Source: Dethiobacter sp.
Lineage (GTDB): Bacteria; Bacillota; Dethiobacteria; Dethiobacterales; Dethiobacteraceae
DNA length: 59,967 nt
Assembly: GCA_018333635.1 (NCBI GenBank)
Contig: JAGXTL010000084.1
Span: 1-59,967 of the forward strand
Direction: 5' to 3'
The notes under the pieces were generated by a model. It was not told where the DNA came from. It saw only the letters and a program-made list of their open reading frames with translations, and searched no databases. The position numbers were made by a program, and so were the translations under genes. Shown one piece after another: positions 35,574 through 56,711 of the stretch. Within the stretch, counting starts at the first letter, position 1; each line of letters starts with the position of its first letter.

Positions 35574-36035
35574 GTGTCTTCTTTTTTATCGGCTAAGGAA
35601 ATAGAGGAACTGGTCAAGCGGCTAAATCCTGAGGAGGAACTAAAGAAAAGTCAGGGTGTAGGGGTACCGCCGGCACAAGCACCGCTAGCGGAACTCAATA
35701 ACTTGCCGCTGCAGGAAATCGAGCGGGTAGAGTTTCCAGAGCTGCGAAAGAATAGCGGCGGTGAAAAATGCAGGGAAGTAGGTTTCTTTAGTGTCGTGCC
35801 GGTTACTTTGGCGCTTGAATTGGGCGGTGTCACGCTGACAGTGCGGGAAATACTTTCGCTGCAGAAGAATTCGCTAATTAAACTAGATAAGTTGGCGGGA
35901 GAAAATATTTCTCTCTGTGTCAACGGCAAGCCGCTGGCCAGCGGCGAAGTTGTGGTTATCAACGATAATTTTGCTTTTCGGGTAGCCCATTTGGGTGAAA
36001 GGCCTGCAGATGCTGAGGAGAAGGAGCAAGCGTGA
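35574..36035 (+). CDS. FliN-like SpoA-domain protein (FliN')
   Basis: 153 residues. The C-terminal half is a SpoA/FliN domain (VTLALELGGVTLTVREIL..., LCVNGKPLASGEVVVINDNFAFRV). The N-terminus MSSFLSAKEIEELVKRL resembles the CheY-P docking peptide of FliM (LSQxEIDxL). It lies between fliL and fliO, where fliM/fliY sit in Bacillus. Two more SpoA proteins are encoded at 50.7 and 51.3 kb, so this is a third, probably part of the C ring. GTG start after GGAGGGTGG. Confidence 0.85.
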   Translation: MSSFLSAKEIEELVKRLNPEEELKKSQGVGVPPAQAPLAELNNLPLQEIERVEFPELRKNSGGEKCREVGFFSVVPVTLALELGGVTLTVREILSLQKNSLIKLDKLAGENISLCVNGKPLASGEVVVINDNFAFRVAHLGERPADAEEKEQA

Positions 36036-49768: not shown

Positions 49769-50752
49769 ATGAAAGAGGTGTTGTCTCAGTCGGAAATCGA
49801 CTCTTTGATTCAGGCGCTTTCAAAGGGACAGATTGCCGAGGAAGCGGAAAGCGGTAGTTTTGCGGACAGTTCTGTCAAGCTATACGATTTTCGGAGGCCT
49901 AATAAATTTTCAAAAGAACAGATGCGTACGCTGCAAATCGTCCACGAAAATTTTGCGCGTGTGCTTTCTAATTTCCTGACTGCTTATCTGCGTACGCCTG
50001 TGCAGGTCAAGCTTGAATCAGTTTCGCAGGTGACATTTGAGGAGTTTATTTTTTCATTGCCTACGCCAACGTTGATGACTATTTTTAACGCAGCGGAAGA
50101 AATGGGCAGTGCCATGCTGGAGACTAACCCTCAATTTGTTTTTCCGATTATTGACCTGCTCTTTGGCGGAGAAGGAGAAACGCCAAAGAAAATCCGCGAA
50201 CTTACAGAGATCGAATTGACGGTGATGCGTAGAGTCATGACAAAAACACTGGAAAACTTGCGTTATGCCTGGGAAGACATTGTGACTTTGCTGCCACGCA
50301 TTGAGAATATGGACACAAATCCGCAGTTTAACCAGATGATAGCCTCCAATGAAATAGTAGCCTTAATGACGCTGAGCACCAAAATTCGCAAATCAGTAGG
50401 CTTAATCAACGTCTGCTTTCCGTTTATTACGTTAGAGCCGGTGATAGCCAATCTTACTGCGCAACATTGGTTCTCTGCCTCGCAGCGGGTAGGCAGCGTT
50501 GACAGCCGGCTTGTGCAAGCCGGGTTGGAAACGGTAGAAGTGTCATTAGCTGCAGTGCTTGGGGAAACAACTGTTAAAATGGAAGACTTTCTCCAGTTTG
50601 AAATAGGCGATGTCATTCTCTTGGATCAACAGGTGGACAGCCCTATGTCTCTGCTGGTGGAGAATAAGCCAATGTTCCAGATTCAGGCCGGTGTTTCCAT
50701 GGGACGGCGGGCGGTACGTTTTCTTGCGGCGAAAGGGGCAGAGGCCAAATGA
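49769..50752 (+). CDS. fliM: Flagellar motor switch protein FliM
   Basis: 327 residues. The N-terminal CheY-P docking peptide (VLSQSEIDSLIQAL), the CheC-like middle domain, and the C-terminal SpoA domain (ETTVKMEDFLQFEIGDVILLDQ) are all there. It receives CheY-P and reverses the motor. Overlaps fliN by four bases (ATGA). Confidence 0.95.
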   Translation: MKEVLSQSEIDSLIQALSKGQIAEEAESGSFADSSVKLYDFRRPNKFSKEQMRTLQIVHENFARVLSNFLTAYLRTPVQVKLESVSQVTFEEFIFSLPTPTLMTIFNAAEEMGSAMLETNPQFVFPIIDLLFGGEGETPKKIRELTEIELTVMRRVMTKTLENLRYAWEDIVTLLPRIENMDTNPQFNQMIASNEIVALMTLSTKIRKSVGLINVCFPFITLEPVIANLTAQHWFSASQRVGSVDSRLVQAGLETVEVSLAAVLGETTVKMEDFLQFEIGDVILLDQQVDSPMSLLVENKPMFQIQAGVSMGRRAVRFLAAKGAEAK

Positions 50753-51156
50753 GTGGTTCAATGCTTTCCCAAGCAGAAATAGACGCGCTTTTGGCCCAGA
50801 TTCCAGCGTCAGTTGACGAGGAAAATCAGGACGGCAGGAGTAAGTTGATTCAGCCGCAACAGACGGCAAGTGAAAAAATAGTGCCGCCCGGCAGTCATCC
50901 CAATTTAGAGCGGATTCTAGATATTCCGTTGCAGGTTAAGGTGACCTTGGGGCAGGGAGCTCGCTCGGTTAAAGATGTGCTGAACCTGATGCCGGGTGCC
51001 ATAGTGGAATTTGAGCGGAATGTCTCTGAACCGGTAGATATAATGCTGAACGGGAAGCTAATCGCCCGCGGTGAAGTGGTGGTAGTGGAGGAGCATTTTG
51101 GCGTACGCGTCACACAGATTATTAGCCCTCTCGAAAGAGTCAGAAAAATGGTTTAA
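50749..51156 (+). CDS. fliN: Flagellar motor switch protein FliN, with a FliM-like docking peptide
   Basis: 135 residues. The C-terminal SpoA domain (LDIPLQVKVTLGQGARSVKDVLNL, VNIMLNGKLIARGEVVVVEEHFGVRV-like) is FliN. The N-terminus reads MLSQAEIDALLAQI, the docking peptide normally found on FliM or FliY. ATG 50749 overlaps fliM; ATG 50761 is an alternative start directly before the docking peptide. Confidence 0.92.
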   Translation: MSGSMLSQAEIDALLAQIPASVDEENQDGRSKLIQPQQTASEKIVPPGSHPNLERILDIPLQVKVTLGQGARSVKDVLNLMPGAIVEFERNVSEPVDIMLNGKLIARGEVVVVEEHFGVRVTQIISPLERVRKMV

Positions 51157-51267
51157 CGCCTGAGGATGAGCAGCAGCCTATTAATCACCAATTAAGGCAG
51201 GAATTTGTAAATTACCGTCGAAATAAGCTGTAAATGATTTGCTCTGCAGCAAGAAAGGCGGTTTGCC

Positions 51268-52869
51268 GTGCATAAACTCACAGCCATGCAGCTGGACGCG
51301 CTGGCGGAAAGCGGCAATATCTCTATGGGGTCTGCCGCTACGGCGCTTTCTCATCTTTTGGGCCATAAAGTGGAAATAACAACGCCCCGTTTAACATACA
51401 CCACGCTCGAAAAAGTCCGGGCGTCTTATCCGTTGCCTTGTATCCTGATACGTGTCCGTTATCATAAGGGGCTGGAAGGCAGCAATCTGTTTATCCTTTC
51501 AGACCGCGATGCTGGGATGGTTGCCAACATGATGATGGGTGATCCGGATTTGCCTTTGCCGGACGAGCTGGATGATTTGTATCTCAGCGCTGTGAGCGAG
51601 GCAATGAATCAGATGATGGGCTCTTCCGCCACGGCAATGTCGGAGATGTTCAGCCGGGTGGTCGATATTACGCCACCGGAAATCGAATATGTAAATCTTG
51701 CCGCCGACACCCCGATTGGAGAATTAGCCGATAATGTCGAGGTCATTCAGATAGCTTTTGACTTGAAGGTGGGAGACTATATTTCGAGCCAGATGCTGCA
51801 AATATTGACGCTTGATTTTGCCAAGCAGCTGGTGGATGAACTTTTGTGTGTTGTCAGCGGGGAAAGCTTGCCGGAGGAACCGGCTCTTTCCGCCGATGAA
51901 GCTGATACATTGGCTGAGATCGGCAATATTTTCATGGGTTCGGCTGCAACGGCACTTTCACAGCTATTGACTAAGCAGGTCAATATCACTACCCCCCGGG
52001 TCTCTATAAGTACGCTGCGTCAAATACGGGACCAGTTTCCGGAGCCTTGTGTAGTAGTAACGGTGGAGTATTTGCAGGGGTTGACGGGAGACAATTTGTT
52101 GATAATCAGTCAGCGGGATGCGACTGTCATTGCCGCGCTGATGATGGGGGAGGAAGCAGACAGCCCGGCCGACCTGGATGAAATAAGAATTAGCGCCGTG
52201 AGTGAAGCCATGAATCAGATGGCTGGTGCGGCTTGTACTTCTTTAGCCGAAATCTTCTATCGGAATATTGAGATTTCGCCGCCGCAGACGGAATACCGTA
52301 CGCTGGGCGAGGACGGCGCTGCGGAAAAAAAATTAGACGAATTGCTGGTAAAACTTTCATTCCGTCTGCGCGTAAACGGCCTGATTGATAGTGAAATTGT
52401 GCAACTGATCCCTTTTATTTTTGCCCGGGAGATGGTGAGGGTCTTGCTGGAGGCAATGGGTGGCACGCCTCAGCAGTCGCCTCAGTTTGCTTTTGAACCG
52501 TTCCCGGAACCGGCGCCGGCGCCAGAACCGATACTTGCTCCGCTGGATTTTGAACCGGTTCTGGCTGCAAATGTGCCGCACTGGCGGCAGGAAGTTGTCG
52601 GAGCGTCTTATCAGGAAGGGACGGTGCAGTTAGATCTGATCCGGGATATTCCTGTACAGGTTACCGGCTTACTGGGACGCCGAACTGTGAAATTAAAAGA
52701 GTTAATGGCTGTTAGCGCCGGGACTGTGCTGGAGCTTGAGAGTACTGCGGAGGTTCCCGTGGACATTCTGGCGAACGGAAAGCTGGTTGCCAGAGGCGAG
52801 GTTGTGGTTTATAATAATCGCTTTGGCATTAAGATCACCGATATAATTGAGCCATGGCAGCGCAATTAA
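51268..52869 (+). CDS. fliY: FliY-type switch phosphatase with two tandem CheC domains
   Basis: 533 residues, longer than Bacillus FliY (about 380). Two CheC domains (about 1-200 and 208-390), then a Pro/Glu linker (410-435) and a C-terminal SpoA/FliN domain (450-533). Each CheC domain has two D/S-xxx-E-xx-N-x22-P phosphatase signatures: DALAESGN, SAVSEAMN, DTLAEIGN and SAVSEAMN. No N-terminal CheY-P docking peptide is present, unlike Bacillus FliY. It should dephosphorylate CheY-P at the switch. GTG start after AAGAAAGGCGG. Confidence 0.9.
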   Translation: MHKLTAMQLDALAESGNISMGSAATALSHLLGHKVEITTPRLTYTTLEKVRASYPLPCILIRVRYHKGLEGSNLFILSDRDAGMVANMMMGDPDLPLPDELDDLYLSAVSEAMNQMMGSSATAMSEMFSRVVDITPPEIEYVNLAADTPIGELADNVEVIQIAFDLKVGDYISSQMLQILTLDFAKQLVDELLCVVSGESLPEEPALSADEADTLAEIGNIFMGSAATALSQLLTKQVNITTPRVSISTLRQIRDQFPEPCVVVTVEYLQGLTGDNLLIISQRDATVIAALMMGEEADSPADLDEIRISAVSEAMNQMAGAACTSLAEIFYRNIEISPPQTEYRTLGEDGAAEKKLDELLVKLSFRLRVNGLIDSEIVQLIPFIFAREMVRVLLEAMGGTPQQSPQFAFEPFPEPAPAPEPILAPLDFEPVLAANVPHWRQEVVGASYQEGTVQLDLIRDIPVQVTGLLGRRTVKLKELMAVSAGTVLELESTAEVPVDILANGKLVARGEVVVYNNRFGIKITDIIEPWQRN

Positions 52870-55436: not shown

Positions 55437-55604
55437 ACAAGCCTGCCCTGAAAATAGCCAACAAATCCCCTCTCCCTTTGGGAGAGGGTTAGGGTGAGGG
55501 CAGAGTGAAGGAGTATTTTCACAAGCCTGCCCTGAAAATAGCCAACAAATCCCCTCTCCCTCTGGGAGAGGGTTAGGGTGAGGGCAGAGTGAAGGAGTAT
55601 TTTT
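55437..55604. repeat. 84-bp tandem duplication with family A cores, cheA-cheY
   Basis: Two 84-bp units (55437-55520 and 55521-55604) differ at about two bases. Each starts ACAAGCCTGCCC, holds a family A core (CCCCTCTCCC to GGGTGAGGGC) and ends GAAGGAGTATTTT. The rest of the gap up to 55701 holds TTCCGC/GCGGAA arms near 55610-55635 but no clear promoter or gene. Confidence 0.9.
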
Positions 55605-55701: not shown

Positions 55702-56064
55702 GTGGGTAGACAGGTATTGATTACAGATGATACGGCGTTTATGCGGATGACATTGAAAAACATCTTGGAGAAAAACGGTTATCAGGTTGTGGGTGAGGCT
55801 GAGGACGGTCAGGTTGCGGTCGATAAATATCTGGAGCTTCGTCCGGATTTGGTAACAATGGATATTACCATGCCCCGCATGGACGGCATCACCGCCATAA
55901 AGAAAATCATCGAGGCAGATCCAGAGGCTAAAATTGTGGTTTGCAGCGCAATGGGGCAAAAGGCGCTGGTGATCGAAGCGCTAAGCGCAGGGGCAAAGGA
56001 TTTTATTGTTAAACCTTTTCAGGCAGAACGGATTATCAATGCAGTTCAGAAAGTTATCGGTTAA
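55702..56064 (+). CDS. cheY: Chemotaxis response regulator CheY
   Basis: 120 residues, single receiver domain. Acidic pocket (ITDD), phospho-acceptor Asp54 (TMDITMPRMDG), VCSAM and KPF are present. CheY-P binds FliM. GTG start after AAGGAGGG. Confidence 0.96.
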   Translation: MGRQVLITDDTAFMRMTLKNILEKNGYQVVGEAEDGQVAVDKYLELRPDLVTMDITMPRMDGITAIKKIIEADPEAKIVVCSAMGQKALVIEALSAGAKDFIVKPFQAERIINAVQKVIG

Positions 56065-56093
56065 AGGTGGTAAAAAGAATAGAGGTGAACAGG

Positions 56094-56711
56094 GTGCCTG
56101 AGTTGCCGATTAGTGAGGAGTTTAAGCTGGATGTCTTAAAGGAAATGGGCAATATTGGGGCTGGCAATGCTACAACCGCGTTGTCCACTCTTTTAAATTA
56201 TGAGCGGGTGAATATGCATGTTCCGGAAGTGGATCTTTGTCCTCTGGTCGATATTCCTGATTTGATGGGCGGCGCAGAAAAGTCTGTGATCGGGATCTAT
56301 ATCAGAGTGTTTAGTGAAGTATCTTTTTATGCTGTTTTTTTAATTGACTTTGAAAGCGCTCAAACTCTTGTGGCAAGCCTCACCGGACAAGATCATCCCG
56401 TTATGGAAGAAATGGGTCGCTCAGTTTTGTTGGAAGTTGCTAATATTGTGACAGCATCATATTTGAACGCCCTTTCTCATTTGACTAATTTAACATTTCT
56501 GCCGGAGCCGCCTTTGTTAGTGGTGGATATGGCTGGGGCAATTCTTGGCACGGTGTTGGCGGAAACAAGCGTGGCGGAAGACTATATCTTGGTGCTGAAG
56601 ACAGCCTTTATTACCGCAACCGGGAATATTGAAGGCAATTTTCTCATCATTCCCGACCAGAATACTTTAGACATTATTGTCAGAATGCTTGTAGACGGAG
56701 CGTGCCAATGA
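56094..56711 (+). CDS. cheC: CheY-P phosphatase CheC
   Basis: 205 residues. Two phosphatase signatures are visible: LDVLKEMGNIGAGNATTAL near the N-terminus and SVLLEVANIVTASYLNALS later. It dephosphorylates CheY-P and binds CheD. The start is uncertain: GTG 56094 has AGAGGTG seven bases before it, while an outer GTG at 56067 would add nine residues. Overlaps cheD by four bases. Confidence 0.92.
   Translation: MPELPISEEFKLDVLKEMGNIGAGNATTALSTLLNYERVNMHVPEVDLCPLVDIPDLMGGAEKSVIGIYIRVFSEVSFYAVFLIDFESAQTLVASLTGQDHPVMEEMGRSVLLEVANIVTASYLNALSHLTNLTFLPEPPLLVVDMAGAILGTVLAETSVAEDYILVLKTAFITATGNIEGNFLIIPDQNTLDIIVRMLVDGACQ

Follow-up and report, generated by a model that had tools for sequence, protein, structure and literature searches.

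A FliY-type flagellar switch protein with two tandem CheC domains in Dethiobacter, and the recurrence of CheC doubling in its class

The fliY gene in a 59,967-nucleotide stretch of Dethiobacter sp. DNA (the window) very probably encodes a FliY-type C-ring CheY-P phosphatase in which two competent CheC domains are attached to a single SpoA anchor. Comparison with related genomes demonstrates that this is a known phosphatase in a form that has evolved repeatedly: doubling of CheC is common in the class to which the window belongs, and tripling occurs occasionally. The gene and its surroundings are laid out as follows.

49769-50752, plus strand: fliM, with an N-terminal SEIDSLI peptide
50749-51156, plus strand: short fliN, with an N-terminal EIDALL-type CheY-P peptide and SpoA, without CheC
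51268-52869, plus strand: fliY, CheC-CheC-SpoA, 533 aa, GTG start; uninterrupted translation, match to NF005995
51277-51846, plus strand: CheC domain 1 (D1), aa 4-193; sequence match to 4hyn, fold Z 26.4 to 4hyn
51295-51387, plus strand: signature 1, D10 E14 N17 P40, DALAESGN from aa 10
51586-51678, plus strand: signature 2, S107 E111 N114 P137, SAVSEAMN from aa 107
51886-52449, plus strand: CheC domain 2 (D2), aa 207-394; sequence match to 4hyn, fold Z 16.9 to 1xkr
51904-51996, plus strand: signature 3, D213 E217 N220 P243, DTLAEIGN from aa 213
52192-52284, plus strand: signature 4, S309 E313 N316 P339, SAVSEAMN from aa 309
52606-52857, plus strand: SpoA (FliN C-terminal) domain, C-ring anchor, aa 447-530; FliMN_C match
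56067-56711, plus strand: separate cheC, two sites, in the cheW-cheA-cheY-cheC-cheD-cheB-cheR run

The protein scores 550 bits against the NCBIfam model of the FliY phosphatase, NF005995 (cut-off 218), contains four stretches of PF04509 (CheC; Pfam, hmmscan, whole-protein E 1.2e-55) and ends in the SpoA/FliMN_C domain expected of a FliY (PF01052, E 7.1e-21); the CheC domain with two ExxN signatures, likewise expected, is present twice. Free-standing CheC and CheX have the same phosphatase fold and signature but are not fused to SpoA, and by virtue of this fusion the window protein is not a free-standing CheC. Each of the four signatures has the form [DS]xxxExxN-x22-P, so that the initial claim, made by a sequence-only reading of the window, of four intact sites with the proline at the exact offset stands. 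The same reading had counted six CheC-type sites in the cell, and the whole genome indeed yields six PF04509 matches, four in FliY and two in the separate CheC; site 1 of the latter has N-x23-P, one residue extra, with the D, E, N and P residues still aligning. The GTG start of fliY is preceded by a plausible Shine-Dalgarno-like AAAGGCGG at 51254-51261, and the start residue is the same in the relatives from the genus.

The gene order in the window is fliM-fliN-fliY-cheW-cheA-cheY-cheC-cheD-cheB-cheR, with cheY at 55702-56064. Between cheA and cheY (55450-55603), a palindromic repeat (CCCTCTCCC...GGGAGAGGGTTAGGGTGAGGGC) occurs twice in tandem; it has 57 matches genome-wide and is a dispersed REP-like element; the minus-strand open reading frames at this location are artefacts of the repeat. 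A second FliN-like protein, a short SpoA protein of 153 aa (FliMN_C, E 1.6e-20), is encoded at 35574-36035, apart from the fliM-fliN-fliY group.

Both halves of the N-terminal region proved to be CheC domains, in agreement with the duplication that had been read from the sequence. Searched separately, both D1 and D2 match the crystallised catalytic core of Thermotoga maritima FliY (4hyn) over essentially the whole domain, with E-values of 6.6e-35 and 3.6e-34, respectively; these full-length matches rule out that one half lies outside the CheC family or lacks its core. The sequence matches of both domains are FliY and CheC proteins, with FliM absent among them. In an AlphaFold2 model with eight double-CheC homologues as input, the order of helices and strands is identical in D1 and D2, and pLDDT within the domains is mostly 75-90, whereas the pTM of 0.40 signifies low confidence for the linker, the SpoA part and the arrangement of the domains relative to each other. 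Structure comparison matched residues 1-199 of the model to 4hyn (Z 26.4) and residues 203-397 to CheC 1xkr (Z 16.9); the comparison table gives each chain once, and the relationship of D2 to 4hyn is therefore covered by the sequence search. The two domains are 45% identical to each other, and the arrangement is common to the genus mates, which together rule out an assembly artefact or a recent misassembly.

The sequence-only reading implied that the doubling is rare and itself named commonness in the clade as grounds for giving up this view; common is what it turned out to be. We searched 98 genomes of the class, compared the regions around the FliY genes of the class relatives and counted CheC domains per FliY with an iterated CheC profile. 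Among the 48 full-length FliYs, a count that omits L060 (truncated at a contig end) and a gene of genome G019 apparently split between contigs (L059 and L185), two CheC domains are present in 26, three in 3 and one in 19. The triple-CheC proteins are 804-818 aa long (L046:4268-6682, L050:4964-7387, L051:4895-7351). All four genomes sampled from the genus encode a double-CheC FliY, and doubles also occur in several further genera of the family and in three further families; within the family, four genera keep the double with all sites intact at protein identities down to 53%. One genome, G006, has two switch loci (L031 and L032), one with a double-CheC and the other with a single-CheC FliY, the double being 88% identical to the window FliY. 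Farther afield, among 398 genomes sampled evenly across the phylum, all the matches listed that span the whole double architecture come from the class of the window except one, G125, where site 1 of the second CheC domain is lost. Two doubles, L201 and L202, were found among 249 genomes sampled from the order to which a Bacillus genome belongs, and neither scores above the cut-off of NF005275. A duplication unique to the window genome is ruled out by these doubles across the class, the phylum and the Bacillus order.

Phylogenetic analysis shows that the second CheC domain of the window FliY apparently arose by internal tandem duplication and that such events recurred independently in related lineages. 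In the IQ-TREE phylogeny of 49 CheC domains, D1 and D2 of L029 are sisters (100/96; mutual identity 82%), the two domains of the Bacillales doubles group together (100/98) and those of family f3 fall in one clade (96/95); a FastTree phylogeny of 134 domains recovers the same groups. A single ancestral duplication for all doubles was rejected, the constraint placing the last domains in one clade giving a p-AU of 0.0067 on a set that includes two long branches, L050 D1 and L042 D1. Because D1 and D2 pair separately in these groups and the single clade is rejected, the architecture arose at least three times, with the pair in the window's family as a further case; the placement of the window D2 in the tree is less certain. 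The single-CheC proteins L034, L035 and L037 nest within the D1 clade of the window-family doubles (100/100), a position that fits a putative loss of D2.

The lineages with independent doubling include a Bacillales lineage close to the existing NCBIfam model NF005275 (PRK06782, flagellar motor switch protein). The window FliY aligns with this model end to end, from the first CheC domain through the second to SpoA (aa 3-527 on positions 6-516 of 516), but its score of 457 bits is below the curated cut-off of 681. Like the window FliY, the Bacillales doubles L201 and L202 have four intact sites and no N-terminal peptide; they differ in being encoded directly after cheA and not after fliM and fliN, and in their duplication being an independent event. 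Their position fits that of B. cereus bc1629, recorded in proteome data as 'CheC/FliN' beside cheY and cheA (PMC12848376). In the open-access full-text literature, we found no paper on a double-CheC FliY, the nearest being these B. cereus data and those on an archaeal CheC3. The latter, from Halobacterium salinarum, has tandem CheC domains in one protein, as does the window FliY, but is presented as a CheC protein that interacts with CheD, with SpoA not mentioned in the passages that describe it (PMC3579733).

The FliYs of the class share another feature, overlooked in the sequence-only reading. The EIDALL-type N-terminal peptide that binds CheY-P is absent from all 51 class FliYs but present in 43 of the 50 short FliNs of the class, encoded next to FliY, and is borne by FliM as well. 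Outside the class, 81 of 88 FliYs have the EIDALL pattern, and at least one of the misses (L100) still reads EIDAL; the peptide is typical of many FliYs and was not treated as defining the family. In the window, the peptide is found in FliM (SEIDSLI) and FliN (EIDALL), whereas the N-terminus of FliY, MHKLTAMQLDALAESGN, is devoid of it, which places this protein outside the tethered, B. subtilis-type subgroup. Compared to the CheC-SpoA FliY of Bacillus subtilis and T. maritima, the window protein shares the CheC fold with two ExxN sites, the SpoA C-terminus and the gene context of the switch complex but has two CheC domains and leaves EIDALL to a separate FliN. The Bacillales doubles and G125 are also without the peptide, so that every multi-CheC FliY found is tether-less. 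Because the single-CheC FliYs of the class also lack the tether, this association is a correlation by lineage and does not prove a link.

In pairwise comparisons of five close genomes, excluding the very close pair L028/L031 with its few synonymous changes, dN/dS is 0.05-0.10 for D1, 0.06-0.13 for D2, 0.07-0.22 for SpoA and 0.21-0.71 for the linker. Thus, unlike the linker, both CheC domains are under strong purifying selection in the genus, and the low values for D2 imply that it is constrained like a working domain. Such constraint on both copies suggests that both may be catalytic, which would place more phosphatase sites around each SpoA anchor. The sequence-only reading had suggested strong CheY-P clearance at the switch or a division of labour between the domains; both are hypothetical. 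Under the mechanism we propose, SpoA would anchor FliY in the FliM/FliN part of the switch, as its domain and family indicate; CheY-P would probably be captured by FliM and FliN and then dephosphorylated by the CheC domains of the neighbouring FliY; and the two tandem domains, with two ExxN sites each, would, from the known chemistry of FliY and CheC, hydrolyse CheY-P near its place of action.

The behaviour of the extra domain in relatives opens other interpretations. The family can do without it, since some relatives have a single CheC. In one genus of the family, D2 has lost the catalytic residues at both sites while remaining in frame (L036:1604-3154, L040:3832-5430 and L185:1-942, the last being the C-terminal portion of the G019 gene that seems to be divided between contigs), and in L178-180 and the triples it is site 2 of the first CheC domain that has been lost; a single N is altered in L054 and likewise in L051. 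Such asymmetric loss indicates that tandem copies do come to divide their labour or become redundant, and the retention of an extra domain that has lost all sites or one means that one copy may have a structural role. One CheC domain of the window FliY could, then, be the effective phosphatase while the other, its motifs retained, serves chiefly to bind CheY or CheD or to pack against FliM and FliN, a specialisation with which the mere 45% identity between D1 and D2 is compatible. We regard this as possible but somewhat doubtful, given that the window genus and most doubles retain all four signatures and that dN/dS is low in both domains; the window genus itself shows no sign of such a division.

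A near-neutral tandem duplication, that is, an extra CheC that makes little difference, is tolerated and comes and goes in the course of evolution, would accommodate the range of one to three copies within a single class, the degeneration of some copies and the position of the singles L034, L035 and L037 within the D1 group of the doubles, which fits D2 loss. Nevertheless, purifying selection on D2 is as strong as that on SpoA in the genus, and the retention of the double in four genera, down to 53% identity and with all sites intact, makes such neutrality unlikely. Even less probable is that the second domain serves as a spacer or structural element resembling the CheC-like middle domain of FliM: FliM middle domains share the fold, as the structure matches attest, and are not known to be phosphatases, but both halves of the window protein match FliY and CheC by sequence, show no FliM match and keep the ExxN...P residues.

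The lifetime of CheY-P at the motor sets the switching response. As a tentative generalisation, which we hold to be somewhat less than an even prospect, FliY function would be split throughout the class, with capture of CheY-P on the short FliN and phosphatase activity on the tether-less FliY. The CheC copy number (1, 2 or 3), altered time and again as domains were duplicated internally, decayed or were lost, would then act as an evolutionary dial on that lifetime. The known mechanism is unchanged by the finding of a doubled CheC. Its value lies in the class itself, which, with FliYs containing one, two or three CheC domains, convergent origins and natural losses of active sites, represents a ready-made comparative series that bears on the number of catalytic sites required by the switch and on whether tandem copies specialise.
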